From an uncultured Flavobacteriaceae bacterium (lineage in GTDB: Bacteria > Bacteroidota > Bacteroidia > Flavobacteriales > Flavobacteriaceae), in contig CALTCK010000013.1 of the NCBI GenBank assembly GCA_943842625.1, forward strand, positions 1 to 64,000: DNA of 64,000 nucleotides, given 5' to 3'. The position numbers and the translations under genes are program-made. Positions 44,488-61,626 of this stretch are shown piece after piece. Below the pieces are notes generated by a model, which worked only from the letters and a program-made list of their open reading frames with translations, was not told where the DNA came from and made no database searches. Every line of letters starts with the position of its first letter. Within the stretch, counting starts at the first letter, position 1.

Positions 44488-45093
44488 TTAATAAGATTGT
44501 AGTTCTAAAATCTTTAACTTTACCTTTTTGGTGGATGGAATCATAGTTTGCTCCAGAATTGAATTTAGTGGGATAGCAGGCATATTTTCACTACCAATAA
44601 GCATTACGGGGGCATCTAACTCTTTAAAACACGCTTCTTGAATACGTCCTTGTAAAGCTCTTGAAAAGCTATTTTCGGAGGGTTCTTCAGTGACGATTAG
44701 GCATTTGCCACATTTTTTTACAGAATTAAAAACAGTTTCATAATCTAAAGGATGTAAGGTTCTTAGATCGACCACTTCAATTTGATCTTGTAATCCTAAT
44801 TCTTTTGAAGCATTCATTGCCCAATGCACCCCCATGCCGTAGGTAATAATAGAAATTGTTTCTTTGGATTCTTGTTTCCAAATTTCTTGCAACACCCATG
44901 CTTTTCCGAAGGGTAATATATAATCCGCTGCTGGCTCAACCGAAGTAGCGCCTTTAGTTCCTGGAACCTTACTCCAATAAAGGCCCTTATGTTCTAAAAT
45001 AACTACCGGATTTGGATCGTAATAAGCCGCTTTCATCAATCCTTTTAAGTCGGCTCCATTACTAGGATAGGCAATTTTTATCCCTCTAATATT
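44488..45093 (-). CDS. E1 beta half, C-terminal part (in-frame piece 3)
   Basis: Resumes as GNIRGIKIAYPSNGADLKGL, then MKAAYYDPNPVVILEHKGLYW, LPFGKAWVL and CLIVTEEPSENSFSRALQG. ATG 45039 is only an internal Met of this piece. Confidence 0.8.
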   Translation of the reverse strand, partial: NIRGIKIAYPSNGADLKGLMKAAYYDPNPVVILEHKGLYWSKVPGTKGATSVEPAADYILPFGKAWVLQEIWKQESKETISIITYGMGVHWAMNASKELGLQDQIEVVDLRTLHPLDYETVFNSVKKCGKCLIVTEEPSENSFSRALQGRIQEACFKELDAPVMLIGSENMPAIPLNSILEQTMIPSTKKVKLKILELQSY

Positions 45094-45604
45094 ACCAGAC
45101 TACACTTTCGATCGAGGAAGAATGATAAGGACCACCACTGCCATAGGCTCCAATAGGCACTCTTAAAATCATAGAAACCGGCCATTTACCGTTAGATAAA
45201 TAACAGGACCTACTAACTTCTGTAAATAATTGATTGAGTCCTGGCCAAAGGTAATCGGCAAATTGTACTTCAACAATTGGTTTTAGACCCACAGCACTCA
45301 TTCCTACAGTACTTCCTACGATAAAGGCTTCTTGAATGGCCGTATTGAACACCCGATGGTCTCCAAATTTTTGAGCTAAGGTAGCGGCTTCTCTAAAAAC
45401 ACCTCCCAATCTGCCTCCAACATCTTGTCCATATAACAAGCATTCCTTATGCTCAGTCATTAACTCCTCGATCGCAAATAAGGCACAATCTACCATAACT
45501 ACTTTCTCTGCATTTTCAGGGAGTTCTTTCACCCTTTTCCTCGGTAATTGGAGTCGGTGCAAAATCGTGAGTAAATAAATCTTTGGGGTCTGGATCCTTT
45601 GCAT
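45092..45604 (-). CDS. E1 beta half, first part (in-frame piece 2)
   Basis: Genuine coding runs from about 45534, VKELPENAEKVVMVDCALFA, through LLYGQDVGGRLGGVFREA, FNTAIQEAFIVGSTVGMS and YGSGGPYHSSSIESV. The first 23 residues and the final VVW before the stop come from the wrong frame. Confidence 0.8.
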   Translation of the reverse strand: MQRIQTPKIYLLTILHRLQLPRKRVKELPENAEKVVMVDCALFAIEELMTEHKECLLYGQDVGGRLGGVFREAATLAQKFGDHRVFNTAIQEAFIVGSTVGMSAVGLKPIVEVQFADYLWPGLNQLFTEVSRSCYLSNGKWPVSMILRVPIGAYGSGGPYHSSSIESVVW

Positions 45605-46574
45605 TTTGTGCCTTTATTAAATCCTGCTGGACAGAACTTAAGGTAGTCTTCTCAATTATTTTTATTTCATTAGCAGAAAAATCATTTTCAAGTAACAACT
45701 GTTTCATTTTTGGATAAGGATCTCGTAGCCTTGATTGTTCCAAATCGTCACGATACCATTCCATGCGTACACCGGAAGTATGGTGATTTAATAAGGGAAC
45801 TTTCGCATGAACTAAAATAGGTCGGCGTTCAGTTCGAATCGTATGTATCACCTTTTGTAGGGTTTCATACGATTCTTCAAAATTAGTACCGTCGATAGAG
45901 ATCGCCTCTAAGCCCTTAAACCCTTTTGCATACTCATAGGCATTTTGTGCTCTGGTTTCTTGAGCTGTTGCTGAAATATCCCATTCATTGTCTTGAACTA
46001 AATACAAAATCGGAAGTTGTTTTAATCCAGCCATTTGAAATGCTTCTGCTATTTCGCCCTCGGTAACGGAGGCATCTCCAAGTGAACAAACGGTGATCGG
46101 TCGGGGTTCGTCGGAGGCATTAAATGTATTGCTATTCGATTTTGAATCTACCAATTCTTTATATTGCATTCCCATTGCAAGCCCAGTGGCAGGGATGGTT
46201 TGCATGCCAGTTGCTGAACTCTGATGCGGAATTTTTGGCTTGTCATCGTCCTTTAAACTAGGGTGACTGTAATAGGTTCTACCTCCAGAAAAGGGATCTT
46301 CTTTTTTCGCAAGTACCTGAAGCATTAAATCATAAGGAGTCATGCCCATCGCTAGTAACATAGCGTCATCTCTGTAATATGGAAACACATAATCCTGGGG
46401 TAACAACTGCATTCCTAAAGCTATTTGAATGGCTTCATGACCCCTAGAAGTGGCGTGGACATATTTTGAAACAACTTTAAAATTCGCTTCGAATACCTCT
46501 GTCATTGCTTTTGCAGTACAGAGTTTAGTAAACCCGTTTTTTAAAATCTCTTTATAATTCTTGATCTTTGACAA
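45516..46574 (-). CDS. E1 alpha half (in-frame piece 1)
   Basis: 352 residues. The thiamine-diphosphate motif is GDASVTEGE at 166-174 with Asn196 in DNEWDIS. Also present are TSRGHEAIQIA, YYRDDAMLLAMG and the phosphorylation-loop-like HTSGVRMEWYRDD. The last few residues (GERTP) are out of frame. Confidence 0.85.
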   Translation of the reverse strand: MSKIKNYKEILKNGFTKLCTAKAMTEVFEANFKVVSKYVHATSRGHEAIQIALGMQLLPQDYVFPYYRDDAMLLAMGMTPYDLMLQVLAKKEDPFSGGRTYYSHPSLKDDDKPKIPHQSSATGMQTIPATGLAMGMQYKELVDSKSNSNTFNASDEPRPITVCSLGDASVTEGEIAEAFQMAGLKQLPILYLVQDNEWDISATAQETRAQNAYEYAKGFKGLEAISIDGTNFEESYETLQKVIHTIRTERRPILVHAKVPLLNHHTSGVRMEWYRDDLEQSRLRDPYPKMKQLLLENDFSANEIKIIEKTTLSSVQQDLIKAQNAKDPDPKDLFTHDFAPTPITEEKGERTP

Positions 46575-46596
46575 ATCTTAATTTTATGTTTAACTA

Positions 46597-47649
46597 TTAA
46601 GCTACTGGAATCATCCAGCTAAAAGGGTCCGCTATTTCTTGAATTTTTATTTTATTGAGCGTATGGTTGATATCCTCTGCAACTGGACTTTCGTCAGAAA
46701 CATGAATAACATCGTCATCCGTGCCAATTTCTTGAATGTATGCTATTCCTACTGCTGTTCCTGTTCCAAAAGCCTCTTTTAAACTACCATTGCTAGAAGC
46801 TTCTCTGATTTCTTCCAGTGAAATAGGTCGTTCTATTACTTCAAATCCTTTATGTCTTAACAAATCAATCACACTCATCCTGGTAATCCCATCTAAAATA
46901 GATCCATCTCTTTTTGGAGTAATAATTTGATTATTAATTTTAAAGAAAATATTCATCGTTCCTACTTCTTCAATATACTTATGTTCTGCTGCGTCTAGCC
47001 ATAACACTTGATTGTAACCTTTCGATTTTGCTTTTTCTGTGGGTAATATTGCTGCTGCATAATTGCCCGCTGCTTTCGCCTCCCCTGTTCCGCCATGAGC
47101 AGCTCTAATAAACTTTTTTTCTGCAAAAAGTTTTATTCGCTCACTGAAATAGGGCCCTGCAGGAGAACAGATAATAATAAACTTATAACTTGTTGCTGCA
47201 CGCATTCCTATAAAATGTTCATCTGCATACATAAATGGCCGCAAGTACATGGCACTTCCTTTTTTCTTTGGAATCCAGTCCTTATCTAAATTCACCAATT
47301 GTTTTAAGCCTTCCAAAAAAATTTCTTCAGGAAGCTCTGGCATTCCCATCCGGACTGCACTGGAATTTAATCTAGCTGCATTTTTAGAAGGCCTAAATAA
47401 CAAAGGAACTCCAGCTGCATTTAAAGTGGCTTTCATCCCCTCAAAAATTGCCTGACCATAATGCAAAGCCATAGTTGCAGGATGTGTAGCAATGGTTTGC
47501 ATGGGTACTATACGAGGATGGTTCCAAGACCCATTTTCATAATCACAAATAAACATGTGATCGGTAAAAATTTTGCCTAATGGAATATGATCAAAATCCA
47601 ATTCATTTAATTTTGAATTTTCAGTTTTGGTGATTTTTATTTTTATCAT
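46597..47649 (-). CDS. ilvE: Branched-chain amino acid aminotransferase
   Basis: 350 residues, class IV PLP transaminase. Substrate and cofactor region: LRPFMYADEHFIGMRAA, GTGEAKAAGNYAAAILP (Lys of EAKAAG is the PLP Schiff-base position) and EVGTMNIFF. It swaps the amino group between Leu/Ile/Val and 2-oxoglutarate, and related enzymes also act on Phe. It sits between E2 and E1 of the 2-oxoacid dehydrogenase, so it can feed 2-oxoacids straight to that complex. 33 bases after E2 and 22 before E1. Confidence 0.94.
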   Translation of the reverse strand: MIKIKITKTENSKLNELDFDHIPLGKIFTDHMFICDYENGSWNHPRIVPMQTIATHPATMALHYGQAIFEGMKATLNAAGVPLLFRPSKNAARLNSSAVRMGMPELPEEIFLEGLKQLVNLDKDWIPKKKGSAMYLRPFMYADEHFIGMRAATSYKFIIICSPAGPYFSERIKLFAEKKFIRAAHGGTGEAKAAGNYAAAILPTEKAKSKGYNQVLWLDAAEHKYIEEVGTMNIFFKINNQIITPKRDGSILDGITRMSVIDLLRHKGFEVIERPISLEEIREASSNGSLKEAFGTGTAVGIAYIQEIGTDDDVIHVSDESPVAEDINHTLNKIKIQEIADPFSWMIPVA

Positions 47650-47682: not shown

Positions 47683-48966
47683 TTATATTTTTCTGTTACT
47701 ATCAAAATTCTCTAAATTATCAGCTATTCTTCTTAAAAAAGAGCCCGCTAAAAATCCATCTACAATCCGATGATCAAAAGATAATGACAAGTACATCATC
47801 TGCCTAATCTCAATAGAGTCGCCCTCAGGCCTTTCTATTACCTCCGCTCTTTTTTTAATGATTCCAGTAGCAAGTATTGCAGCCTCTGGTTGGTTAATTA
47901 TTGGAGTTCCCATTATAGAGCCAAAGGTTCCAACATTCGAAATAGTGAAAGTACTACCACTCGTATCATCTGCTTTTAATTTATTTTTTCTGGCTTTTAG
48001 TGATAAAGAATTGATGGATACTGCAAGCTCCTTTAAATTTTTTTTATCGGCATTCTTAACAACTGGAACAATTAAATTACCAGAGGGTAAAGCAGTGGCC
48101 ATTCCTATATTAATTTCTTCTTTTACAATAATATTTTTACCATCTAAGCTCGAGTTGATCATAGGAAAATCATGGAGTGCGCCAGCAACAGCTTCCACAA
48201 ATAGGGGAGTAAAAGTTAACTTTTCTTGATATTTTTCTAAAAAATTACTTTTAACATGATTTCTCCAGTTTACCATCTCCGTTAGATCTGCCTCCACATA
48301 AGCAGTAACGTGAGGAGAAGTGTGCTTACTAAAAACCATTCGATCGGCAATCATTTGTCGCATACGATCCATCTCAACAAGCTTCCCTTTTCCTTTATCA
48401 AATTTTAAATCAGGAACTTCAAATTTATTTTCTGATTCATTTGGCTGCGCATATTTAAAAGGTCGATCTGCTTCTATATAATTCATGAGGTCACTTTTAC
48501 GTAAACGCCCTTCATTACCAGAAACAGGGATTCGTGCTAATTCTTCAAAACTAATATGATATTCCTTCGCTACACTAACTACTAATGGTGAAAAATGTAA
48601 ATTTGGATTCGCAACCTCAAATTCAACTGATTGGGTTTTTGTATATAGATTTAAAGAGGTTGACTTTGAACTTTTAGGAGTTTCTTTTTTTGGAAGCTGC
48701 TGTTTTTTGATAGTTTTTATTTGACTATCTCTTTCTATGAGCGCAATCGTTTCTCCAATTTTTATAACATCGTTCTGCTGGTATAGTAATTTTGTAATTG
48801 TACCTGTTACCAATGATGGAACCTCAGAGTCTACTTTATCGGTAGCTACTTCTAAGAGCACCTCATCTTCTTCAATTGTTTCACCAACATTTTTAAACCA
48901 TTTAATAATGGCTGCTTCAGTAATACTCTCGCCAAGTTTTGGCATTTTAAATTTATATTCGGACAT
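47683..48966 (-). CDS. 2-oxoacid dehydrogenase E2 (dihydrolipoyl acyltransferase)
   Basis: 427 residues in the standard order: a lipoyl domain (about 1-77, lipoyl-Lys44 in ATDKVDSE), a Lys/Ser-rich linker, a peripheral subunit-binding domain (about 128-168, SPLVVSVAKEYHISFEEL...GRLRKSDL) and the catalytic domain (about 195-427, with SFDHRIVDG, His near 399). It transfers the acyl group from E1 to CoA. It opens the three-gene E2-ilvE-E1 group at the downstream end of the paa operon, 15 bases after paaY. Substrate: branched-chain 2-oxoacids by similarity, possibly also phenylpyruvate (inference). Confidence 0.93.
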   Translation of the reverse strand: MSEYKFKMPKLGESITEAAIIKWFKNVGETIEEDEVLLEVATDKVDSEVPSLVTGTITKLLYQQNDVIKIGETIALIERDSQIKTIKKQQLPKKETPKSSKSTSLNLYTKTQSVEFEVANPNLHFSPLVVSVAKEYHISFEELARIPVSGNEGRLRKSDLMNYIEADRPFKYAQPNESENKFEVPDLKFDKGKGKLVEMDRMRQMIADRMVFSKHTSPHVTAYVEADLTEMVNWRNHVKSNFLEKYQEKLTFTPLFVEAVAGALHDFPMINSSLDGKNIIVKEEINIGMATALPSGNLIVPVVKNADKKNLKELAVSINSLSLKARKNKLKADDTSGSTFTISNVGTFGSIMGTPIINQPEAAILATGIIKKRAEVIERPEGDSIEIRQMMYLSLSFDHRIVDGFLAGSFLRRIADNLENFDSNRKI

Positions 48967-48981
48967 TGATTATTGTCTTTC

Positions 48982-49581
48982 TTATTTCTTATTTTTTATT
49001 TCCCTAAATGTTTTGTAAAAATCTTCTTGCTTAGGCCTGTTTCTTGGAAGTTCTCGAAGCGGTTCCACTTCCTTCAAGCTTTCGTAGCAATCGGCAGGCA
49101 ATTGTTGATATAATTTAGTTCCTGCAGTTTTCCAATTTAACATCTCATCAGAAACTTCTTTTAAAACTTTGGCTGGATTTCCTACTATTAAACTTCGATT
49201 AGGAAAAACCGATGCTGCTTTTACAAAGCTCATAGCTCCAACAATTGATTGGTCTCCGATAACGGCATCGTCCATAATGACACTATTCATACCTATAAGA
49301 CAATTACGGCCTAAATTAGCTCCGTGGATAATAGCGCCATGACCTACATGGGAACCTTCTTTTAAAAAAATTTTTTTTCCAGGAAACATATGTACGGTGC
49401 AATTTTCTTGAATATTAACACCATCCTCTAAAATAATTTCGCCCCAATCACCACGGATTGCTGCTCCTGGACCTACATAACAGTTTTTACCTATTACAAC
49501 ATTACCTGTAACCGCTGCTAGAGGATGAACAAAGCTACTTTCGTGAACTACTGGAATATGTCCTTTAAAACTATAAAACAT
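48982..49581 (-). CDS. paaY: PaaY-like hexapeptide-repeat protein (gamma-carbonic-anhydrase fold)
   Basis: 199 residues. Left-handed beta-helix with hexapeptide repeats (VIGKNCYVGPGAAIRGDWGEIILEDGVNIQENC...). Candidate metal-binding histidines are in CTVHMF, GSHVGHGAIIHG. PaaY in other bacteria acts as a thioesterase that removes dead-end CoA intermediates of phenylacetate breakdown. It follows the second enoyl-CoA hydratase with no gap and is 15 bases before E2. The operon position makes paaY the best name among hexapeptide transferase homologues. Confidence 0.88.
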   Translation of the reverse strand: MFYSFKGHIPVVHESSFVHPLAAVTGNVVIGKNCYVGPGAAIRGDWGEIILEDGVNIQENCTVHMFPGKKIFLKEGSHVGHGAIIHGANLGRNCLIGMNSVIMDDAVIGDQSIVGAMSFVKAASVFPNRSLIVGNPAKVLKEVSDEMLNWKTAGTKLYQQLPADCYESLKEVEPLRELPRNRPKQEDFYKTFREIKNKK

Positions 49582-50331
49582 TTATTTAAATTTCTTTAAG
49601 GTCTCTTTTGTAAATTCAGATAAAACTAGACGTCCACTTATCGAAGCTCGTTCTGCTAACAAACGATCCCAGTTTTCGGTACCCGCCCAAAATACTTTTT
49701 TCATTTCCGCCATAGCTTCAGGATTGTAAGTACATAAGTTTGTTGCAAAAGTTAAAATAGCTGCATCTAATTCGTCTGCAGTTTCGAATACTTGAGAAAA
49801 GAGTCCTTTTTGTTTTGCCCATTCAGCACTGTAAAAAGAATTTGCATCCATCGCTATTTGTGACATAGCACTCAGACCAAGTTTTCGCTGGACTGCTGGT
49901 CCAACTACAAAAGGGCCAATTCCAACATTTAATTCACTCAACTTGATGGCTGCAAATTTTGTAGCCATACAGTAATCTGTGGCTGCGGCAATTCCAACGC
50001 CCCCTCCTACAGTCTTTCCTTGAATTCTTCCAATAATAAATTTAGGACATTTACGCATTTCATTAATTACGTTTGCAAAACCAGAAAAGAAAGCTTTTCC
50101 AGCAACCGAATCGTTGATTGCAGTTAATTCCTCAAAACTTGCTCCAGCACAAAAAGTACGATGACCTCCACTTTTCAAAATAATAACTTTGACGGTGTTA
50201 TCCTGTCCCGCTTCCTTGATTGTATTGGCGAGTTTTGTGAGTATTTTTTCAGGTAAGCTATTGTGAGTTGGATGAAAAAACTCAATCGTAGCAATACCTT
50301 TATTGATTGTATTGTGAACGTATGCTTCCAT
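49582..50331 (-). CDS. Enoyl-CoA hydratase/isomerase family protein (PaaF candidate)
   Basis: 249 residues from ATG 50331, one base after the paaZ stop (an upstream ATG at 50346 overlaps paaZ). Crotonase fold with TFCAGASFEEL, the oxyanion-hole region KTVGGGVGIAAATD and SELNVGIGPFVVGP. Of the two catalytic Glu of enoyl-CoA hydratase, the one in GGGxE is Gly here, while the Glu of SELN is kept. So it may be a hydratase of altered mechanism or an isomerase. It is the only candidate in the operon for PaaF (2,3-dehydroadipyl-CoA hydratase). Confidence 0.82.
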   Translation of the reverse strand: MEAYVHNTINKGIATIEFFHPTHNSLPEKILTKLANTIKEAGQDNTVKVIILKSGGHRTFCAGASFEELTAINDSVAGKAFFSGFANVINEMRKCPKFIIGRIQGKTVGGGVGIAAATDYCMATKFAAIKLSELNVGIGPFVVGPAVQRKLGLSAMSQIAMDANSFYSAEWAKQKGLFSQVFETADELDAAILTFATNLCTYNPEAMAEMKKVFWAGTENWDRLLAERASISGRLVLSEFTKETLKKFK

Positions 50332-50332
50332 A

Positions 50333-51040
50333 TTATAATAATCCAAATTGTTTAAAATGATGATTTAAATGTTTCCGCTCTAACAAATACCATTCGTATT
50401 TCTCTAAATGACCAAAAACAACATTTTTAACGATAGCTTTTGGATTTTCTTTGTAGAAATCTAAATACGCATTTCTTGCTTCTAATAATTTTAATTTTGC
50501 TGTAGATAGATTTTCATGTTTCAATACTTCTAGTTGTCCTTTTTCATAAAGAGGAAAATCATAGCCAACAGGCATCGGTTTATAGTTATATAAAGTCTCT
50601 TGTACTTTTTCAATATGTTTTTCAAGAGTTGAAATTTCAAAATCTTGAATTTCAGAAGATGCAATTCGATAGCTGTATTCCAAGTGTTCAACCATATGTT
50701 GAGGGGTCATAATTCCCCAAGAAGGTTTCGAATTTTCATCTAACTTTGATAAATACATTTCTATATTATCAGTTGTAATTTCAGTTAAAACCTCTTGTTT
50801 TTTTTGAACCATGGTCAAAATTGTTGCAATCGCTACTAGTTCGTCTTCCAGGTCAAAAACTTCTACATACCATTTTACGATACCACTAGGATGTTCTTTT
50901 CCTCTTGGATCCCGATCTATTTTCTGTTTGCATGTTAATCGAACATAAACCGTATCGTTATGATAGATAGGTCTTAAAAAGCGACAATCTTCCAGCCCGT
51001 AATTAGCAGCTACAGGACCCTTATTTGGATAAACGAACAA
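50333..51040 (-). CDS. PaaZ, C-terminal piece: end of MaoC plus DUF1569/DinB-like domain
   Basis: 235 residues. MaoC tail (NYGLEDCRFLRPIYHNDTVYVRLTCKQK to ATILTMVQKK) joined to a roughly 140-residue helical domain with SWGIMTPQHMVEHLEYS and VVFGHLEKYEWYLLERKHLNHHFKQFG. The His residues of HMVEH and KHLNHH lie as in metal-binding DinB/DUF1569 bundles. Its role beside PaaZ is unknown. Confidence 0.8.
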   Translation of the reverse strand: MFVYPNKGPVAANYGLEDCRFLRPIYHNDTVYVRLTCKQKIDRDPRGKEHPSGIVKWYVEVFDLEDELVAIATILTMVQKKQEVLTEITTDNIEMYLSKLDENSKPSWGIMTPQHMVEHLEYSYRIASSEIQDFEISTLEKHIEKVQETLYNYKPMPVGYDFPLYEKGQLEVLKHENLSTAKLKLLEARNAYLDFYKENPKAIVKNVVFGHLEKYEWYLLERKHLNHHFKQFGLL

Positions 51041-52829
51041 GGCCCGCTGCTGCAGCTAATATAAAGTAGCCATGTGCTGTTCTTTTCTCAAAAATACTTC
51101 CATCGAGAGATGTGATATCAGTATGCGCATAAAAATGATCCCAGGTTAGGTTAGCAAAGTTGACAATATCACCATCTGTTATGGTTCTTTTATGGGTTTT
51201 AAGCGACATCCCAGGCTCCAAATCTTCCCAATGATATGCAAATGGATGTTGATCGATTTCTTTGTAAGCCCCTTTTGGCTGATAAATACCCGTTACTTCT
51301 GTCAATGTTGTAGGAGAACCCTGAATAGCGCAACGTTGCAAATAATGTTTTACACCTCTCATTCCTCCCATTTCTTCGCCGCCTCCGGCTCTTCCTGGAC
51401 CTCCATGAACTAGCGTGGGTAGTGGTGAGCCATGACCCGTACTCTCTTTTGCATTTTCGCGATTTAAAACCAATATTCTTCCATGGTGCGTAGCAGCTTC
51501 TACTACATATTCTTTTGCTGTCAAATCGTTATTTGTGATAATGGAGGATACTAAAGAACCTTTTCCTAGGTGAGCTAGGCGAATAGCTTCATCTAAAGTT
51601 TTGTAAGGCATTAAAGTACTTACAGGACCAAAAGCTTCAATTTCGTGTATGGCTGTATTTTTGAATGGTTGATCTTCTCTTAATAAAATTGGAGCTAAAA
51701 AAGCACCATCCTTGGCACTTGCTCCTAAAGTGGTTACCTCCTCTAAATTTCCATAAACCAATTGAGCTGTTTTTCTTAGCTCTCCAACTCGTTCTTTTAC
51801 TTCTTGAACTTGATCTTTACTTACCAAAGCTCCCATCCTAACCTCTTTAAGCCTTGGATCACCAATGGTTACTTTTTCTAATTGTTGCCCAAGTGCTATT
51901 TGAACATCTTCCATCAATTTTTCAGGAACAATAATTCTCCGAATAGCAGTACATTTTTGACCGCATTTTACAGTCATTTCTTTTCTAACTTCTTTTATAA
52001 AAATATCAAATTCAGGAGTGCCGGGGACGGCATCTTCTCCTAAAACACAAGAATTTAATGAATCTGCTTCCATATTAAAAGGAACTGATTCATTGATAAC
52101 TTTTGGATGTGCTTTTAGCATTCTGCCCGTATCAGCAGAACCTGTAAAAGTAACTACATCCTGCGACTCAATAGCATCTAAAATTGTTCTGGCTGAACCT
52201 GAAATTAATTGTAGAGAACCTTCGGGTAGTATATTGGAGGCTATTATTTCTCTAACTACTGCTTCTGTCAAAAAGGAAGTGTTGGTTGCAGGTTTTACTA
52301 CTGCAGGTACTCCTGCCATCCAGTTTACTGCACACTTCTCTAGCATACCCCAAACAGGAAAATTAAAAGCATTAATATGAATTGCAACCCCTCTTTTAGG
52401 AACTAATATGTGGTGGGCCATAAAACGTCCACCTCTCGACAAATCAATAGGATCCCCTTCTACATGATAAGATTGGTTTGGGAAAAGTTTTCGTAAAGAT
52501 GCATTTGCAAATAAGTTACCAAAACCCCCTTCAATATCTATCCAACTATCAATTTTAGTTGCTCCAGTTCGAAAACTAAGATCGTAAAAATGCTGTTTCT
52601 TTTTTATTAAATGAAATGCTAACTTTTTTAGCATATTTCCACGTTCTTGAAATGTCATTTTACGTAAAGCCTCCCCTTTAAATCTCCCGTAATGGAGCAC
52701 TTCTGAAAAGTCAAATCCTGAAGTGTCTGATAGCGCAACAATCTCACCAGTAACAGCATCTTTCATTGGAATTCCTTCGCCTGAACCAAAACACCATTGA
52801 CCATTAATATAACTTTCTAGTTTTTTCAT
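51021..52829 (-). CDS. PaaZ, main piece: aldehyde dehydrogenase and start of MaoC
   Basis: 602 residues. NMEADSLN carries Glu254 and VKCGQKCTAI carries Cys293. AAAAGLVRLSK at the end is wrong; the true frame reads AAAAGLFVYPNKG. The MaoC active-site Asp and His are in WDHFYAHTD. Confidence 0.87.
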   Translation of the reverse strand: MKKLESYINGQWCFGSGEGIPMKDAVTGEIVALSDTSGFDFSEVLHYGRFKGEALRKMTFQERGNMLKKLAFHLIKKKQHFYDLSFRTGATKIDSWIDIEGGFGNLFANASLRKLFPNQSYHVEGDPIDLSRGGRFMAHHILVPKRGVAIHINAFNFPVWGMLEKCAVNWMAGVPAVVKPATNTSFLTEAVVREIIASNILPEGSLQLISGSARTILDAIESQDVVTFTGSADTGRMLKAHPKVINESVPFNMEADSLNSCVLGEDAVPGTPEFDIFIKEVRKEMTVKCGQKCTAIRRIIVPEKLMEDVQIALGQQLEKVTIGDPRLKEVRMGALVSKDQVQEVKERVGELRKTAQLVYGNLEEVTTLGASAKDGAFLAPILLREDQPFKNTAIHEIEAFGPVSTLMPYKTLDEAIRLAHLGKGSLVSSIITNNDLTAKEYVVEAATHHGRILVLNRENAKESTGHGSPLPTLVHGGPGRAGGGEEMGGMRGVKHYLQRCAIQGSPTTLTEVTGIYQPKGAYKEIDQHPFAYHWEDLEPGMSLKTHKRTITDGDIVNFANLTWDHFYAHTDITSLDGSIFEKRTAHGYFILAAAAGLVRLSK

Positions 52830-54049: not shown

Positions 54050-54456
54050 GATACTTCCCAGTCTTTTGAGGTTCTATATACCACTCCTTTAAAGAGTGCT
54101 ACTAATTCATTTTCTCTTTTTACTTCAACGATATTAAAGCCAACTTTTGTTTTCTGAAGATTTAAGGTTGCTTCAGCAATTAAATAATCTCCTTCTTCTA
54201 ACGCTTCAATATGATTGATTGATGTTTCGATAGATACTGCATATTTTCCATGAGTATTTGCTGTAAACCCAAAAGCCGTATCTGCTAGTGCATAGGTAAT
54301 AGCTCCATGGGCTTTATTCATACTATTTAACATCTCTTTTCGAACCGTCATTCCAAGTTTACATTTTCCAATTTCACATGACAATATCTTGATTCCTAAC
54401 CACTGACTGTAGGCATCTAAACTTAACATTTTATGAGGAATGTCTTTACTTTCCAT
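54046..54456 (-). CDS. paaI: PaaI hotdog-fold thioesterase
   Basis: 136 residues from ATG 54456, whose A is the last base of the paaH stop (a longer ATG at 54507 would lie inside paaH). Motif MNKAHGAITYALADTAFGFTANTHG is the hotdog helix with the active-site Asp of ADTAF. PaaI hydrolyses dead-end phenylacetyl-CoA derivatives and frees CoA. The last four bases overlap paaJ. Confidence 0.9.
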   Translation of the reverse strand: MESKDIPHKMLSLDAYSQWLGIKILSCEIGKCKLGMTVRKEMLNSMNKAHGAITYALADTAFGFTANTHGKYAVSIETSINHIEALEEGDYLIAEATLNLQKTKVGFNIVEVKRENELVALFKGVVYRTSKDWEVS

Positions 54457-55628
54457 TAAAAGAAGTTTTTCTGTTCCCGATTCATTTTTCGTAAAATAGG
54501 TGAGCAACGGTATCTGTCCTCCCGATATTCATCATATAGTTGATCCATTTGATTCACGCACCAATCAATTCCTTTTTCATCCGCCCAAGCTAAGAGTCCT
54601 TTTGGGTAATTAACGCCTTTAGTCATTGCATTATCAATATCTTTAGCAGAAGCTATATTCCAAAATAACGCATCTGCAGCTTCATTAATCAACATGACTA
54701 AAACTCTATCAAAAATTAATTGAGACAAAGCACTGCCTATATTGGTTTCACTTTTATTAAGTGGGACTATTTGATTATTTTCATCATATTCATAAAATCC
54801 AATCCCAGATTTACGTCCTAAATAGCCTGCCTCTGCAAAACGTTTTTGGGTAAATGAAGGCTTATATCTCGGATCAAAAAAGAAAGATTTAAATACCGTT
54901 TCTGTTACGGTAAAATTGATGTCATTGCCAATAAAATCCATTAATTCAAAAGGCCCCATACGGAACCCTCCTAAGTTCTTTAAACTGTTATCTATGGCTT
55001 GAAAACTAGCAACACCTTCTTCATATATTCGCAACGCCTCGCTGTAAAAAGGTCTAGCTACTCGATTTACTATAAAACCTGGGGTATCTTTTGCAATAGC
55101 TACTGTTTTTCCCCAGCTTGAAATGGTATCAATTGATTTCTCTAGGGCTTCATAGGAAGTTTGTATCGCAGGAATGACCTCCACTAATTTCATTAAAGGG
55201 GCAGGATTAAAAAAATGAATCCCAACACAGCGTTTTGGGTTTTTTAATGATGCAGCGATAGAGGCTATGGATAAGCTTGATGTATTCGAAGCAATTATGC
55301 AATCATTACTTACCAAAGTCTCTAATTCCGAAAAAACTTTTTTCTTTATTTCTAAATTTTCTATGATTGCCTCAATTATTAAATCGGAATTACTTAATTC
55401 TTCTAAAGAATCAACGTAATTAATATTACTTTGGATTCTATTTTTTTCTGAGGTATCGATTCGTCCTTTTTCAATTAAACGAATTAATATTCTTTCGAGA
55501 GAAGTCTTTGACTTTTCCAACACTGCTCGATTAGCATCAAATAAGTTGACCTGGCAACCAGCAGTTGCAGCAACTTGTGCTATTCCGCTACCCATGGTTC
55601 CACTTCCTATAATTCCAACTTTCATCAT
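54456..55628 (-). CDS. paaH: 3-hydroxyadipyl-CoA dehydrogenase (3-hydroxyacyl-CoA dehydrogenase family)
   Basis: 390 residues. The N-terminal NAD-binding fold begins VGIIGSGTMGSGIAQVAA. The active-site region HFFNPAPLMKLVEVI is intact, as are SWGKTVAIAKDTPGFIVNRV and GPFELMDFIGNDINF. It oxidises 3-hydroxyadipyl-CoA. A C-terminal second 3HCDH domain is present (KSGIGFYEY and onward), typical of the PaaH type. Six bases after the dehydratase, one base overlap with paaI. Confidence 0.93.
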   Translation of the reverse strand: MMKVGIIGSGTMGSGIAQVAATAGCQVNLFDANRAVLEKSKTSLERILIRLIEKGRIDTSEKNRIQSNINYVDSLEELSNSDLIIEAIIENLEIKKKVFSELETLVSNDCIIASNTSSLSIASIAASLKNPKRCVGIHFFNPAPLMKLVEVIPAIQTSYEALEKSIDTISSWGKTVAIAKDTPGFIVNRVARPFYSEALRIYEEGVASFQAIDNSLKNLGGFRMGPFELMDFIGNDINFTVTETVFKSFFFDPRYKPSFTQKRFAEAGYLGRKSGIGFYEYDENNQIVPLNKSETNIGSALSQLIFDRVLVMLINEAADALFWNIASAKDIDNAMTKGVNYPKGLLAWADEKGIDWCVNQMDQLYDEYREDRYRCSPILRKMNREQKNFF

Positions 55629-55634: not shown

Positions 55635-56570
55635 TTAAAATGGTAAATTAGTCAAGTCTACATTCCCACCAGAAATTATAATCCCAACTTTTTTATTTTT
55701 AAAATTTTGTTTTTCTTTCAATAAGGCAGCAAGAGGCACAGCACTTGAGGGCTCTATAACCATCTTCATGCGTTCCCAAACCAATTTCATTGCATTAATA
55801 ATCTCCTCTTCACTCACTCGAATTATCTTTTTTACATTTTCTAAAATAATGGGGAAATTTCGATCTCCTAAATTGGTTCTAAGACCATCTGCAATAGTGG
55901 TTGTATTTTTATTATATTCTATTTTTCCGCTCTTTAGAGATCTGTATGCATCATCCACATTTTCAGGTTCTGCTCCAATAACTTCGCAATTACTTGAAAA
56001 ATATTTTGCTGAAAGAGCGGTGCCAGCGAGGAGTCCTCCTCCACCTACAGGTGCTAAAATAATATCTAAATCGGATTGTTTTTCCAATAATTCTTTAGCT
56101 GAAGTACCTTGTCCTAAGATTACTTGATCATCATTAGAGGGATGAATAAAGGTAGCGTTTTCGTTTTCAACAATTCTTTCTGCTTCAATTTCTCTTGCCT
56201 TAATATTAGAATCACACTCAATGATAATTCCTTGATAATTTAAAACTGCATCTTTCTTGACTTGTGGCGCATCTTCAGGCATCACAATAAAAGCCTTGAT
56301 ATTTAAAGATTTTGATGCAAGAGAGATTGCCTGAGCAAAATTTCCTGAGGAGTGAGTTACGACGCCATTTTCTTTTTGTTTGGAAGTTAAATTTTGAATC
56401 GCGTTGATAGCACCTCTCATTTTAAAGGCCCCCATTTTTTGAAAGTTTTCACACTTAAAATAAACGTGACAACCACAAGTTTTGTTGATTAACTCTGAGG
56501 TGAGTACTGGTGTTTCGTGAATATAAGGCTTCACGTTGTTATGTACTTGTATCAGAGTTTCCTTATCCAT
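55635..56570 (-). CDS. Serine/threonine dehydratase (PLP fold type II)
   Basis: 311 residues from ATG 56570, one base after the paaG stop. The PLP-Lys is in KMGAFKMRGA, the phosphate-binding loop is APVGGGGLLAG, and SSGNFAQAISLAS is the substrate loop. No ACT domain, so not the long biosynthetic type; similar to catabolic threonine dehydratase or serine racemase. It would make 2-oxobutyrate or pyruvate from Thr or Ser. Its position in the middle of a phenylacetate operon is unusual (see findings). Confidence 0.92.
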   Translation of the reverse strand: MDKETLIQVHNNVKPYIHETPVLTSELINKTCGCHVYFKCENFQKMGAFKMRGAINAIQNLTSKQKENGVVTHSSGNFAQAISLASKSLNIKAFIVMPEDAPQVKKDAVLNYQGIIIECDSNIKAREIEAERIVENENATFIHPSNDDQVILGQGTSAKELLEKQSDLDIILAPVGGGGLLAGTALSAKYFSSNCEVIGAEPENVDDAYRSLKSGKIEYNKNTTTIADGLRTNLGDRNFPIILENVKKIIRVSEEEIINAMKLVWERMKMVIEPSSAVPLAALLKEKQNFKNKKVGIIISGGNVDLTNLPF

Positions 56571-56571
56571 A

Positions 56572-57354
56572 TTATTTTCCTTTGAATATTGGTTTTCTTT
56601 TTTCAATGAAGGCATTAACTCCTTCTATGTAATCCTCGGATTGAGCCGCCTCAATCTGTAATTTTCCCTCTAAATCCAATTGTTTTTCTAAAGTGTTGGT
56701 CATTGATTCATTTAGCATTTTTTTAATAAAACCAAGTGCTTTTGTGGGCATATTGGCTAAATGAATAGCTATTGTTTTGACTTCTTCATTAAAAGTATCG
56801 ACCGGAAAAACTTTATAAATCATACCTAATGCCTCCGCTTCTTTTGCAGGAATTTTATCTCCAAACATCATTAATGCACTGGCTTTTTGAAAACCAATTA
56901 AACGAGGTAAAAAAAACGTACCTCCACTGTCTGGAACCAATCCTATTTTACTAAAAGCTTGAATAAAACTTACATTTTCAGAGGCCACTACAACATCACA
57001 AGCTAAAGCTATATTTGCTCCAGCCCCTGCTGCAACTCCATTAACCGCTGCGATAATAGGTTTATTTATATTCCTAATTCTTATAATAATTGGATTGTAA
57101 TGCTCTTCTAATATTTTTTTAAAACCAGGATTTAATTCTGGTGTTGTGACTTCTTTTAAATCTTGTCCAGCACAAAAAGCTTTACCCTTACCACTAAGAA
57201 CTATAGATCTAACTTCGCTGTTTTTTTCACAATCGTCTAAAGTAGCTTGAAGTAAAAGCGCCATTTCTCTGTCAAAGCTATTGAATACATCAGGTCTGTT
57301 AAGAGTAATGTATGCAACTTGATTTTCAGTTTTTAAAAGAATACTTTTATCCAT
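56572..57354 (-). CDS. paaG: PaaG-type 1,2-epoxyphenylacetyl-CoA isomerase (enoyl-CoA hydratase family)
   Basis: 260 residues from ATG 57354 (a longer start at 57375 overlaps paaD). Crotonase fold with GKAFCAGQDLKEV, VAAGAGANIALACD, and GLVPDSGGTFFLPRLIG, where the Asp of PDSGG is the PaaG-type catalytic residue. The tail EDYIEGVNAFIEKRKP is also PaaG-like. It turns the ring epoxide into the oxepin. 11 bases after paaD. Confidence 0.9.
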   Translation of the reverse strand: MDKSILLKTENQVAYITLNRPDVFNSFDREMALLLQATLDDCEKNSEVRSIVLSGKGKAFCAGQDLKEVTTPELNPGFKKILEEHYNPIIIRIRNINKPIIAAVNGVAAGAGANIALACDVVVASENVSFIQAFSKIGLVPDSGGTFFLPRLIGFQKASALMMFGDKIPAKEAEALGMIYKVFPVDTFNEEVKTIAIHLANMPTKALGFIKKMLNESMTNTLEKQLDLEGKLQIEAAQSEDYIEGVNAFIEKRKPIFKGK

Positions 57355-57365
57355 TAGTTGTTTTT

Positions 57366-57866
57366 TTAAAGGCATTTAAAATAATCAAATGGTTCTTTAC
57401 AGTCTTCACATTTAAATAACGCTTTGCATGCGGTGGAACCAAATTGGCTAACTACGACTGTTTTCGTTGATTTACAGTTTGGACAGCTTACCATTCTTTT
57501 TTCTTCTAATAATACTTCTTTATCTGCTGTTGGATTTAAGGGTGGGGCTATTCCATAATCTTCCAATGCTTTCCTTCCTCTTGGTGTAATCCAATCAGTT
57601 GTCCAAGCAGGATGAAGTATTAAATCTACTTTTGATTCATAACCAGCATCTTTTAACGCCTTTTTTATATCATCACCAATGACATCCATTGCTGGGCAAC
57701 CACTGTAAGTTGGTGTAATTTGAACTTTAACGTTACCATTTATAATAAGAGCAGATCGAACAACTCCCATATCCATAATAGATAATACTGGTATTTCTGG
57801 GTCGGATACCTTTTCTAAAACCGAAATTAAAACTTGTTCGATATTTTGATCTGTTGTTTCTATCAT
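57366..57866 (-). CDS. paaD: PaaD, phenylacetyl-CoA epoxidase maturation protein (MIP18/DUF59-type)
   Basis: 166 residues from ATG 57866, one base after the paaC stop. DUF59-like N-terminus (DPEIPVLSIMDMGVV, TPTYSGCPAMDVI) and C-terminal Cys-rich zinc-ribbon-like tail (CPNCKS...FKCEDC). PaaD is needed for epoxidase function, probably in Fe-S supply. Confidence 0.93.
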   Translation of the reverse strand: MIETTDQNIEQVLISVLEKVSDPEIPVLSIMDMGVVRSALIINGNVKVQITPTYSGCPAMDVIGDDIKKALKDAGYESKVDLILHPAWTTDWITPRGRKALEDYGIAPPLNPTADKEVLLEEKRMVSCPNCKSTKTVVVSQFGSTACKALFKCEDCKEPFDYFKCL

Positions 57867-57867
57867 A

Positions 57868-58620
57868 TTACCATTCCATATTCGGATATGTGCGTTGCAT
57901 ATACTGTAAATCACTTAACAAATATCCTAAATGCTCTGTATGAACACCTTCTTTACCTCCTGTTTGAAACCATTTAGATTCAGGGATTTCGAGTGTTGCT
58001 TCTAACAAGATCTCATTTATTCGACTGTAGTAATTGTTTTTTAACTTAGTAACATCCACTCCTACTCCTTCAAAAACCATTTCTTTATCAGCGTTTGTTT
58101 GATAAAACAATTCGTCAGTGTACGTCCATAAACCATTGATAGCTTCTTGCATTTTTTCTTTACTCACTGAAGTACCATTGCCTAATCGTTTTACCCAATC
58201 AGATGAAAACCTTAAGTGATAACTCACTTCTTTAACACATTTTTTTGCAATTACCGATAATGTAAAATCGTTACTATTTTGGAGTTCAGTTAAAAATGCT
58301 AGATGATAAACATCAAATAAAAATTGTCGCCCAATTGTAAAAGCAAAATTGGTATTGGGTTGTTCTACTAATAAAACATTTTTATAATCACGTTCCTTTC
58401 GAAGCATTGCGATATCATCTTCTGTTCTTTGGTCACCAGCAATTTTTGCAGCATATTGAAAATAACTGCGTACTTGTCCAAATAAATCTAATGATATATT
58501 TGTACAAGCTATATCTGTTTCTAAACTTGGACCGTGGCCGCACAACTGACCTAAACGTTGACCTAAAATAAGGCTGTTATCTGCGATTCCAAGAATATAA
58601 TTATATAAATTATTTTTCAT
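57868..58620 (-). CDS. paaC: PaaC, structural subunit of phenylacetyl-CoA epoxidase
   Basis: 250 residues, ferritin-like helical protein that supports PaaA. Blocks: LILGQRLGQLCGHGPSLETDIA, RDYKNVLLVEQPNTNFAFTI, KEVSYHLRFSSDWV. The start overlaps the paaB stop by one base. Confidence 0.94.
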   Translation of the reverse strand: MKNNLYNYILGIADNSLILGQRLGQLCGHGPSLETDIACTNISLDLFGQVRSYFQYAAKIAGDQRTEDDIAMLRKERDYKNVLLVEQPNTNFAFTIGRQFLFDVYHLAFLTELQNSNDFTLSVIAKKCVKEVSYHLRFSSDWVKRLGNGTSVSKEKMQEAINGLWTYTDELFYQTNADKEMVFEGVGVDVTKLKNNYYSRINEILLEATLEIPESKWFQTGGKEGVHTEHLGYLLSDLQYMQRTYPNMEW

Positions 58621-58904
58621 TACATATGTTTTATATCGTCTGGCAAATCGTAAAATGTTGGATGACGATAAACCTTGTCTTGAGCAGGCTCAAATAGTTC
58701 GCCATTATTTAAAGGATTGGAAGCTGTTATGTTTTTAGATTCTGCGACCCAAATACTAACCCCTTCATTTCGCCTGGTATATACATCCCGAGCATTCTCT
58801 AAAGCCATCTCTGCATCTGCTGCATGAAGGCTTCCAAAATGTCTGTGTTCTAAACCATTTTTTGATCGAACAAATACTTCCCAAAGGGGCCAATTTTTTT
58901 TCAT
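58620..58904 (-). CDS. paaB: PaaB, phenylacetyl-CoA epoxidase subunit
   Basis: 94 residues from ATG 58904; an in-frame ATG at 58958 lies inside paaA. WPLWEVFVRSKNGLEHRHFGSLHA and ALENARDVYTRRNEGVSIWVV-like text match PaaB. Essential non-catalytic component of the PaaABCE complex. Confidence 0.94.
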   Translation of the reverse strand: MKKNWPLWEVFVRSKNGLEHRHFGSLHAADAEMALENARDVYTRRNEGVSIWVAESKNITASNPLNNGELFEPAQDKVYRHPTFYDLPDDIKHM

Positions 58905-58914
58905 CTTTATTAGT

Positions 58915-59871
58915 TTAAACAGCTTTATTAAAATTTTTATTTGCTTGTTTTTCTGCATAAGCTATAGCTGCATCGCGAACCCATTCTCCTTCTTTCCAAG
59001 CACCCACTCGAGCTTTCATTCGTTCTTTATTGCAGGGTCCATGACCCTTAACTACTTGCCAAAATTCATCCCAGTTAATCGGACCAAAATCATAGCTACC
59101 ACGTTCTTTATTCCATTTCAATTCTGGATCTGGAATGGTGAGACCAATAAGATCTGCTTGGGGAACTGTTTGATCTATAAATTGCTGCCGTAAATCATCA
59201 TTAGACTTACGTTTTAATTTCCATTTCATTGACTGTTCTGTATGAACAGACTCTTCATCTTTGGGCCCTAACATCATTAAACTTGGCCACCACCATCGAT
59301 TTAAAGCGTCTTGAGCTAAATCTTTTTGTTCAGAGGTTCCATTTGCTAACTTCATCATGATTTCAAAACCTTGACGTTGATGGAAACTTTCTTCCTTGCA
59401 TACTCTAATCATTGCTCTTGCATAGGGACCATAGGAAGTATTGCATAGGGGGACTTGATTGATAATAGCCGCGCCATCAACCAACCATCCAATAGCACCC
59501 ATATCTGCCCAAGTTAAGGTTGGGTAATTAAAAATACTTGAATATTTTGCTTTTCCAGTATGTAATTGTTCGTACATTTCTTCACGAGATATTCCTAATG
59601 TTTCTGTAGCTGAGTATAGATATAAACCATGGCCAGCTTCGTCTTGGACTTTTGCCAGAAGTGCCACCTTGCGTCTTAAAGAAGGAGCTCTTGAAATCCA
59701 GTTTCCTTCAGGTAACATTCCAACAATCTCTGAATGGGCATGTTGAGACATTTGTCTAATATGCGTTTTTCGATACTTTTCAGGCATCCAATCCTTGGGC
59801 TCGATCTTCTCATCACGCTCAATTCGTGCATTAAATTGAATCTCTAAATTTTTTATTTGTTCTTCACTCAT
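58915..59871 (-). CDS. paaA: PaaA, catalytic diiron subunit of phenylacetyl-CoA epoxidase
   Basis: 318 residues. Two ExxH diiron motifs are visible: [10 protein letters not shown] (EAGH) and [10 protein letters not shown] (ESFH). It inserts one oxygen atom into phenylacetyl-CoA to form the 1,2-epoxide. Further family blocks: [23 protein letters not shown] and [22 protein letters not shown]. First gene after paaE, gap 44 bases. Confidence 0.96.
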
Positions 59872-59915: not shown

Positions 59916-60986
59916 TTATACATCAAAATTTAAAATCACTTTATTACTTGTTGGGACTGCTTGACAGCTTAAAACAAATTGCTCAGAAACTTCTTTTTCG
60001 TCCAAAGCATAATTAACTTTCATTTTAACAGAACCTTCAATAACTTTACATTTACAAGTACTACAGACTCCACCTTTACAGGCAAAAGGCAAATCAGCCC
60101 CAGCAATTAAAGCTGCATCTAAAACATTATCATCATTACTAGTCATTCCAAAATGAAATTCTTTACCTCCATCGATAATTGTTAAAGCTACCTCCTCTTT
60201 TTTCTCTATTTCATTATGGTTAGCTTCCTTTTTAATTTCTTTCGACAATCCGGTGACAAACAATTCAAAATGGATATGCTCGGCAGACATTCCTGCCTCC
60301 ATTAATTCATTTTTAACTAAGAATATCATCTCTTCAGGCCCACACAAAAAACACTCGTCTAATTCATAAACATTCACTAATTTATTAAAAATGACTGCTA
60401 ACTTTTCTTTGGTAAATCTTCCATTAAATAACTCACTATCTCTTGACTCTTTAGTTAAAAAATAAAACACTTCTAATCTTCCAAAATACTGGTTTCTAAG
60501 CTGTTCTATTTCTTCTTTAAAGATAATAGTTTTTACAGTACGGTTTAAATAAAATAATTTAAATGTACTATTGGGTTCTTTGGCTAAATGTGTTTTGATC
60601 ATAGAAAGTATGGGGGTAATTCCACTTCCTGCAGTAAAAACTATGTAGTTTTTTGGAATCTCAGAAATTGCAGTACCAAACCTCCCCATAGGTTTCATTA
60701 CCTGTAAGGTGTCATCTTTTTTCAGGAACTGATTGACATGAGTTGAAAACTTCCCATCGGGGATCTCTTTAACTGCGACCTTCCATTCGTTATCAATGGG
60801 ACTTGAACATAAACTATAGGAACGTCTTATGTCTTCGCCGTTTATTGTCTCTCTTAGAGTTAAATACTGACCCGCTTTATATTTAAATTTATCTTTTAAA
60901 TCTTCAGGCATATCAAACTCAATGACTGAACATTGCTCAGTGTCTTTATATAGATCTTTTACTTTTAACGGATAAAACTTTGGCAC
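59916..60986 (-). CDS. paaE: PaaE, FAD/2Fe-2S reductase of phenylacetyl-CoA epoxidase
   Basis: 356 residues. FAD-binding barrel ([10 protein letters not shown]), NAD(P)-binding domain ([20 protein letters not shown]) and C-terminal plant-type 2Fe-2S ferredoxin with [13 protein letters not shown] and a last Cys in LSCQAVP. It feeds electrons to PaaA. It is the first gene after the regulator, unlike the E. coli order paaABCDE, and follows the operator. Confidence 0.95.
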
Positions 60987-61007
60987 AATTACTATTTTTA
61001 CTTTAAC

Positions 61008-61027
61008 AAACTAACAAACGTTAGTTT
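61008..61027. promoter_or_regulatory. Palindromic operator between tetR and paaE
   Basis: A perfect inverted repeat, arms AAACTAAC and GTTAGTTT separated by four bases. It lies 21-41 bases before the paaE ATG and just downstream of the -7 element at 61034-61041, where a bound TetR-family protein would block transcription. I infer it binds the adjacent regulator. Confidence 0.75.
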
Positions 61028-61033
61028 AAGACA

Positions 61034-61041
61034 CAAAGATA
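61034..61041 (-). promoter_or_regulatory. -7 promoter element (TATCTTTG) of the paa operon
   Basis: The complement reads TATCTTTG, an exact TAnnTTTG match, 47 bases before the paaE ATG and six bases upstream of the operator. No -33 TTTG at the usual distance. Confidence 0.6.
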
Positions 61042-61056
61042 ACAATTATTTATAAT

Positions 61057-61626
61057 TTATTTGTTAATTCCTTTTAACAGAACCTCACTTAGGTTAGTTG
61101 CTAATAAACTAGAGTTCATATCTTCTTTTTGAGGAATCCAAATATATAATGACCTTAATGTTGACAGTATGGAAAATAACATGATATCAGAGTTGATAGA
61201 TTTTATTTCATTTTTTTTTATTCCTTCATTAATTATTGTTCTAAAAGTATCTTCATAATTAACTCTTAGGGTTAAATAATAATCCAATTGATCCTTTAAA
61301 TGCATCCAATCATTATTTAAAGAAGCCATACCATTTGTATTTCTCGTTGCTATATCAACATGTAATGCTATAATTTTTTTTAATTTATCAATACATGTAT
61401 TGTTTTCTTCTTTGATTTCATCGATTCCATTAATAAATTCTTCCGCTAAAGAAATAATTATAAAGGTAAGTATCTCTTCTTTATTTTTAATATGATTGTA
61501 TAGACTAGCTGCTTTTATTCCCATTGCCTTGGCAATATCGCGCATCGTAACAGCACTAAAGCCTTTGTCTTTAAATAAAGCTGATGCTATTGTAATAATT
61601 TCTAATTTTCTTGGAGTTGGATTCAT
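61057..61626 (-). CDS. TetR/AcrR-family regulator (probable repressor of the paa-bkd operon)
   Basis: 189 residues. The N-terminal helix-turn-helix (FSAVTMRDIAKAMGIKAASLYNHIKNKEEIL, about 19-50) is typical of TetR. The C-terminal ligand domain is variable. It lies directly upstream of paaE on the same strand, with a palindrome and a promoter in the 70-base gap. By analogy with PaaR, the inducer may be phenylacetyl-CoA. Regulation of the genes further down (bkd part) by it is inference. Confidence 0.9.
   Translation of the reverse strand: MNPTPRKLEIITIASALFKDKGFSAVTMRDIAKAMGIKAASLYNHIKNKEEILTFIIISLAEEFINGIDEIKEENNTCIDKLKKIIALHVDIATRNTNGMASLNNDWMHLKDQLDYYLTLRVNYEDTFRTIINEGIKKNEIKSINSDIMLFSILSTLRSLYIWIPQKEDMNSSLLATNLSEVLLKGINK

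Follow-up and report, generated by a model that had tools for sequence, protein, structure and literature searches.

A phenylacetate operon of Flavobacteriaceae with a probable phenylpyruvate dehydrogenase as its source of phenylacetyl-CoA

Gene content and organization of the locus

The first 64,000 nucleotides of contig CALTCK010000013.1 (GenBank assembly GCA_943842625.1, from an uncultured Flavobacteriaceae bacterium), hereafter the window, contain a phenylacetate (paa) operon that ends in the E2 and E1 components of a 2-oxoacid dehydrogenase. Judging from its gene content and distribution, this operon probably serves phenylalanine breakdown and generates its own phenylacetyl-CoA, by means of a dedicated phenylpyruvate dehydrogenase formed by E1 and E2. 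A TetR-family regulator gene is followed by 16 genes, all on the minus strand, which run leftward to position 44488 in the order paaE-A-B-C-D-G, a dehydratase gene, paaH-I-J-Z, a gene for an enoyl-CoA hydratase, paaY, E2, ilvE and E1. As measured from the listed open reading frame (ORF) ends, the largest gap within the 16-gene block is 44 bases (between paaE and paaA), the TetR-paaE spacing is 70 bases and the paaY-E2 gap is 15 bases. An earlier note on this DNA, drawn up from its letters alone, had described a TetR gene and 16 leftward genes with gaps of 44 bases or less, and had reported that the phenylacetate-CoA ligase PaaK is absent from the block. ORF ends and profile matches bear out both statements, since no gene of the block matches as PaaK. 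The gene identities and gene order given in the note also stand; what it missed is that E1 is one fused gene and that both E1 and paaZ are split in this assembly.

The epoxidase set is present, with PaaA (58915-59871; TIGR02156, 529.5 bits), PaaB (58620-58958; TIGR02157), PaaC (57868-58620; TIGR02158) and PaaD (57366-57914; TIGR02159) all above their NCBIfam cut-offs and the epoxidase reductase PaaE (59916-60986) having TIGR02160 as its best match, at 392.9 bits and below the cut-off of 420.8. The ring-opening and beta-oxidation set is likewise present. It comprises the ring isomerase PaaG (56572-57375; best match TIGR02280, 310.6 bits, below the cut-off of 345.15), the 3-hydroxyacyl-CoA dehydrogenase PaaH (54456-55628; the general model NF006124 above cut-off, the PaaH model second and below its own), the 3-oxoadipyl-CoA thiolase PaaJ (52838-54049; TIGR02430, 597.7 bits against a cut-off of 597) and PaaZ (50333-52829), the ring-opening enzyme and aldehyde dehydrogenase, which matches TIGR02278 on both of its pieces, the larger one above cut-off. 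The thioesterase PaaI (54046-54507; TIGR02286) and the hexapeptide protein PaaY (48982-49581; TIGR02287) have the corresponding paa model as their best match, below cut-off. The second enoyl-CoA hydratase (49582-50346; ECH_1) perhaps does the work of PaaF. PaaZ also has an extra C-terminal part of ~150 amino acids (50333-50800 in the window; L138:7039-7560 in a relative of the same genus) that matches no Pfam family (best E 0.11) and that we take to resemble DinB/DUF1569-type proteins.

The last three genes, again on the minus strand, encode E2 (47683-48966; 2-oxoacid_dh and lipoyl domains), a class IV aminotransferase of the branched-chain type, IlvE (46597-47649; NF009897, 392.7 bits, cut-off 307), and a fused alpha-beta thiamine-diphosphate E1 (44488-46574; E1_dh, Transket_pyr and Transketolase_C on three pieces). 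The domain set of a 2-oxoacid dehydrogenase is therefore complete, with the E1 alpha, pyrimidine-binding and C-terminal transketolase domains on E1 and the lipoyl and acyltransferase domains on E2.

Conservation of the cluster in close relatives

Gene order was compared among the best 80 of 547 relatives, i.e. the closest ones, which include Winogradskyella, Kordia and Aquimarina; gene presence was counted at the 70 loci where the sequence upstream of E1 extends for 9.9 kb or more. E2 is present at all 70, the enoyl-CoA hydratase and paaY at 69 each, paaZ at 67 and paaJ at 63, with all matches on one strand; for paaI, paaH and the genes beyond, a growing number of loci end too early to show them. 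A survey of the same gene order in other Flavobacteriaceae, which the earlier note had proposed, thus finds E2 and E1 linked to each other at every locus and to paaY and paaZ at nearly all of them. The serine/threonine dehydratase-like pyridoxal phosphate enzyme (55635-56615; PALP, with beta-hydroxyaspartate dehydratase as the best NCBIfam match, below cut-off) behaves as a variable passenger. It was detected at 5 of the 70 loci and was missing from all 17 that show paaG, the latter being the firmer basis because the dehydratase position lies ~9-10 kb upstream of E1, where the flanks may miss it. A reading of the operon around threonine and 2-oxobutyrate was dropped, since this gene is variable and absent at the 17 paaG-showing loci.

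Co-occurrence of E1 and PaaA

Among 199 genomes of the family labelled f1, which by its named loci is probably Flavobacteriaceae, with PaaA scored above its NCBIfam cut-off and the E1 alpha part at E <= 1e-60, PaaA occurs in 70 and the operon-type E1 in 68, and all 68 fall within the PaaA set. The two genomes with PaaA and without E1 (G090 and G179) are assembled in ~100 and ~130 contigs. E1 and paaA lie at most 30 kb apart in 63 of the 68 genomes; in one the distance is 68 kb, and in four they are on separate contigs. Because linkage alone could explain co-occurrence of this kind, the count was made class-wide, in 187 genomes, with E1 at E <= 1e-120 and PaaA at E <= 1e-50. E1 was present in 144 of these and PaaA in 141, with both in 140 and neither in 42 (Fisher p = 5e-36, a value that ignores kinship). 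Only 11 of the 140 have the two genes within 30 kb; in a further 11 they share a contig at distances of 37 kb to 2.2 Mb, and in 118 they are on separate contigs, although some of these 118 pairs could adjoin across an assembly gap. Presence and absence of E1 and PaaA also vary together inside the family labels f1, f4, f8 and f52. In a phylum-wide sample of 296 genomes, the E1 alpha part was found in all 27 of the PaaA-positive genomes belonging to the same class or below, at 51-100% identity. Hence, E2 and E1 belong with the paa genes.

The neighbourhoods of unlinked E1s give no comparable picture. In 13 neighbourhoods from other families, mostly reaching at least 6-7 kb on each side and with a Pfam scan on selected neighbours, no paa genes were found apart from a 36% PaaE-like match in L129. 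The scanned neighbours were mixed (pth, rplY, prs, Mg-chelatase and CinA types) and offer no functional clue.

E1 paralogues and branched-chain substrates

The E1 complement was examined by a PF00676 search of 25 family genomes, mostly chosen for few contigs, of which 13 are PaaA-positive and 12 PaaA-negative. The search finds PdhA, SucA and three fused E1 types. Type A (~660-700 amino acids) is present in 13 of 13 PaaA-positive and 9 of 12 PaaA-negative genomes, and type B (~780-830 amino acids) in every genome of both groups (13/13 and 12/12). The operon type is found in all 13 PaaA-positive genomes, each of which has types A and B besides, and in 0 of the 12 PaaA-negative ones. The operon E1 is thus an extra paralogue beside types A and B. 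In a tree of 63 alpha parts, the operon-type E1s and the unlinked E1s of other families form one clade (support 100/98), to which types A, B and PdhA do not belong; the linked rows of this tree number 30, most of them randomly drawn, and row L117, from G233, is unlinked. The alignment shows a conserved SSATGMQ stretch that is particular to this clade and differs from type A, with no established tie to aromatic substrates. The operon E2 has no BLAST match in the type A or type B neighbourhoods.

These counts bear on the possibility that E2, IlvE and E1 form a branched-chain complex for leucine, valine and isoleucine, and for 2-oxobutyrate from the dehydratase, that is merely seated in the paa operon. 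Consistent with such a complex, IlvE is of the branched-chain type, the best solved matches of the E1 beta part are the 2-oxo acid and 2-oxoisovalerate dehydrogenases of Thermus (with 1ik6, named 'pyruvate dehydrogenase', nearly level), the dehydratase could supply 2-oxobutyrate, and type A, the other E1 resembling branched-chain ketoacid dehydrogenase (BCKDH), is absent in 3 of the 12 PaaA-negative genomes. However, the alpha part of type A is far closer to human BCKDH (158 bits) than that of the operon type (46-47 bits), and type A also occurs in the other 9 PaaA-negative genomes. An HMG-CoA-lyase-like marker of leucine breakdown, which is a weak one in that 0 of 50 genomes score above its curated cut-off, was found in 26 of 26 E1-positive and 20 of 24 E1-negative genomes, so that leucine breakdown does not seem to track the operon-type E1. 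The dehydratase, as described above, is missing at all 17 paaG-showing loci, and a branched-chain complex leaves the co-occurrence of E1 and PaaA away from the operon unexplained. We therefore consider this explanation unlikely. The earlier note had offered simple co-regulation of amino-acid breakdown as its alternative; co-regulated branched-chain breakdown would leave the operon E1 in leucine degraders that lack paa genes, and its absence from all 12 PaaA-negative genomes, alongside the leucine marker in E1-negative ones, speaks against that alternative.

The regulator and its operator

The PaaR repressor of Thermus thermophilus is released by phenylacetyl-CoA. In the window, the TetR-family regulator (61057-61626, minus strand) matches TetR-type families, none above cut-off, and is PaaR-like by its position and its predicted operator. 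The latter is the palindrome CTAACAAACGTTAG at 61011-61024, between the TetR gene and paaE; the 64 kb contain no other copy of CTAACNNNNGTTAG. The 12 relatives fetched for this region, which are all other PaaA-positive family genomes of the 25-genome set, each have a TetR homologue (46-78% identity) ahead of paaE, and CTAAC-N4-GTTAG is found in 13 of 13 TetR-paaE gaps, the window included. No second site of this type lies before E2. Likewise, none was found in 1.53 Mb of E1 loci, where base composition predicts 1.7, so that this is not depletion. The accessible text of a study of T. thermophilus reports that its PaaR binds AACnAACGTTnGTT, sharing CNAACG and CGTTNG with an earlier consensus (PMC6651687). 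Against these arms, the predicted operator is one base off in the window and up to two bases off in relatives, and it resembles the T. thermophilus site. The two systems are alike, as far as that text describes the regulon, in having a TetR regulator and a 14-bp palindrome upstream of paa genes; a phenylacetyl-CoA ligase belongs to the regulon of T. thermophilus (PMC6651687) and is missing from the operon described here.

A gene for an aromatic amino acid hydroxylase (~580 amino acids) is divergent from the TetR gene in 5 of the 12 relatives (L150-L154, from G159, G052, G069, G074 and G168); in G159 it scores 837.7 bits with NF010657 against a cut-off of 346, and in L153 a second operator copy at the TetR start faces it. 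This neighbour points to aromatic amino acids as the topic of the operon. The window holds a different gene at this position. In a set of 50 genomes, the hydroxylase family PF00351 occurs in 8 of 26 PaaA-positive and 16 of 24 PaaA-negative genomes; therefore, the hydroxylase is not a constant partner of the operon, and phenylalanine hydroxylase, considered as an alternative route, neither requires nor excludes it.

The hydroxylase also enters into a second alternative, in which a mixed arylpyruvate complex converts phenylpyruvate together with 4-hydroxyphenylpyruvate or indolepyruvate to arylacetyl-CoA, with the paa enzymes taking up only a share of the product and the remainder being released by thioesterases. 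The hydroxylase gene adjoining the operon in five relatives and the membership of PaaI and PaaY in the operon would both fit, and a published account cites Pyrococcus furiosus as converting arylpyruvates to arylacetyl-CoA (PMC5109826). The coupling that was seen, however, is to PaaA, with PF00351 as the only other aromatic gene surveyed, and we regard a mixed complex as highly unlikely.

PaaK and the evidence against the proposal

PaaK and PaaA serve as markers of phenylacetate breakdown. A genome-wide search for paaK, suggested by the earlier note, yields a single match of 18.6 bits in the window's own genome, which is a 1.94-Mb assembly of 17 contigs and 84% complete. Because the curated cut-off of TIGR02155 is strict (10 of 14 control genomes match the model and 1 of 14 passes the cut-off), PaaK was judged by scores. 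None of the 199 family genomes exceeds the curated cut-off, and more than 550 bits are reached in G079 and G087 only. A distant PaaK relative (143-196 bits, ~430-490 amino acids) was counted by hand in 43 of the 199 family genomes, including 21 of the 129 that are PaaA-negative. By the same hand count, which leaves weaker AMP-binding matches uncounted, 47 of the 70 PaaA-positive genomes have neither PaaK nor the distant relative. In the phylum sample, the class genomes G417 and G425 carry PaaK but neither PaaA nor E1, and the remaining 57 genomes with PaaK, apart from those with PaaA described below, are PaaA-negative and lie outside the class.

Several observations weigh against a phenylpyruvate dehydrogenase as the entry to this pathway. 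With regard to ligases, the PaaK of G079 and that of G087 sit inside the paa-E1 cluster, and 6 of the 27 PaaA-positive class genomes of the phylum sample (G210, G290, G398, G452, G215 and G356) have PaaK at 1e-80 beside E1. E1 and PaaK thus coexist, and E1 is therefore not simply a substitute for PaaK. The distant PaaK relative is found in 22 of the 70 PaaA-positive family genomes, including G159, which is of the same genus as the window; judging by this distribution, it cannot be the general entry enzyme, and it is a possible entry in some genomes, G159 among them. Other acyl-CoA synthetases could also activate phenylacetate. Outside the class, PaaK at 1e-80 was found in none of the 74 PaaA-positive genomes of the phylum sample (73 of them above the PaaA cut-off), and a match to the operon-type E1 at 1e-40 was found in one of these 74, G216, at 35% identity. 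Hence, another entry exists in PaaA-positive genomes that have neither, and the PaaK gap is broader than the operon-type E1 explains. With regard to E1 itself, five class genomes are discordant (E1 only in G529, G534, G556 and G575; PaaA only in G616). One of the 140 genomes with both genes, G546, has an E1 copy with 18 in-frame stops (G546:C4:103904-105901), 20 kb from PaaA, which by its sequence is either a pseudogene or the result of misassembly. Among solved structures, those nearest to the operon E1 carry the labels branched-chain, 2-oxo acid or pyruvate dehydrogenase.

Within the cluster, ilvE occurs at 56 of the 70 loci and is missing from 14, so that it is a usual member and not an obligatory one. 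Of the members listed by the earlier note, the dehydratase and ilvE are not constant. At 33 of 76 loci the paaY-E2 gap, estimated from the earliest ATG, is longer than 300 bases; a single transcript is therefore not assured there, and in many relatives the E2-E1 part may be transcribed from a separate promoter. Lastly, neither E1 nor paaZ is intact in the window as assembled: E1 lies in three frames (45516-46574, 45092-45604 and 44488-45039) and paaZ in two (51021-52829 and 50333-51040). Among the best 80 relatives, E1 is intact (one frame of at least 650 amino acids) in 78, and of the 71 in which paaZ is seen, 68 have it at a length of at least 780 amino acids. G159, which is 99% complete, has an identical gene order (locus L138), with E1 (694 amino acids) and PaaZ (831 amino acids) in one frame each. 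The fused type B E1 of the window's own genome is also split (442 + 305 amino acids; G000:C3, L136). Because the relatives are intact and a second E1 of the same assembly is split too, assembly error appears a likelier cause of these splits than decay.

The least likely of the explanations considered, in which a non-PaaK synthetase elsewhere activates phenylacetate and E1-E2 serves the pathway in some other way, draws on the distant PaaK relatives and on the incompleteness of the window's own genome, but the majority of PaaA-positive family genomes have neither PaaK nor that relative, which is also found in PaaA-negative ones, and we know of no other role for E1-E2 that explains its coupling to PaaA.

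The proposed pathway and its significance

In the proposed phenylalanine-breakdown unit, the IlvE of the operon, or another aminotransferase, would convert phenylalanine to phenylpyruvate. The single-chain E1 would then decarboxylate phenylpyruvate with thiamine diphosphate and load the phenylacetyl group on the lipoyl arm of E2, and E2 would move this group onto CoA, forming phenylacetyl-CoA; the lipoyl arm would be reoxidised by the general cellular E3, with a gain of NADH. Phenylacetyl-CoA would be fed to PaaABCE and enter the known paa chemistry, so that an ATP-driven ligase would not be needed for its formation. The PaaR-like TetR repressor is predicted to leave the operator before paaE upon binding phenylacetyl-CoA, the complex's own product. 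The earlier note had put forward the idea that phenylacetyl-CoA is made from phenylalanine without passing through free phenylacetate. This idea is supported by conservation, coupling and the paralogue pattern, each of which could have gone against it, and the IlvE step is weaker, given the 14 loci that lack the gene.

With respect to known systems, the operon is like the paa pathway of Escherichia coli and Pseudomonas in possessing PaaABCDE, G, H, I, J, Z and Y, and the same ring chemistry is expected. It differs in having E2-IlvE-E1 and no PaaK, in having a TetR/PaaR-like regulator with no PaaX among the genes seen, and in the extra C-terminal part of PaaZ. BCKDH shares the E1 and E2 domain families and is among the nearest solved E1 structures, whereas the alpha part of the operon E1 is strongly diverged and type A is the more BCKDH-like E1 of these genomes. 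For the biosynthesis of phenylglycine in Streptomyces pristinaespiralis, a pyruvate-dehydrogenase-like complex, PglB/PglC, has been proposed to convert phenylpyruvate to phenylacetyl-CoA, according to the accessible portion of the source (PMC7089894). Compared by that description, PglB/PglC serves antibiotic biosynthesis in an actinobacterium and has separate alpha and beta genes, whereas the system proposed here would be catabolic, fused and class-wide, with E2 in the operon. Indolepyruvate/arylpyruvate:ferredoxin oxidoreductase (IorAB), as presented in the available part of PMC5109826, also converts arylpyruvate directly to arylacetyl-CoA with no free acid; unlike E1-E2, it is ferredoxin-dependent, belongs to a different enzyme family and is discussed there for anaerobes. 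No description of the operon-type E1 enzyme in Bacteroidota was found in the open-access literature consulted, a scope that excludes most subscription journals. A 2026 survey, in the text accessible to us, examined 20 genes on each side of paaK and reports full pathways with PaaK in some Flavobacteria (PMC13186573). This survey is anchored on paaK, and PaaK-less operons like the present one would therefore fall outside it.

Taken across the class, the fused phenylpyruvate dehydrogenase E1 probably constitutes an orthologous family that is the normal entry to the paa pathway, with PaaK being a later and sporadic addition, and in Flavobacteriaceae this E1 would have been drawn into the paa operon under PaaR. 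If this is true, 140 of the 187 class genomes degrade phenylalanine via a dehydrogenase, gaining NADH where the ligase spends ATP, and 'phenylacetate degradation' in most such genomes of the class would in fact be phenylalanine degradation without free phenylacetate.

Other features of the window

Just downstream of the operon lies a repeat protein gene (41700-44362), present in more than one frame, which we assume from its repeat pattern to be HYR-like. A looser operator pattern, CNAACNNNCGTTNG with one mismatch, gave 15 matches in the window against 6.1 expected and was set aside in favour of the stricter palindrome used above. Twelve of the 15 fall between 37980 and 44221, within the repeat gene or near it, and zero-mismatch matches are confined to positions 61011 and 44208.

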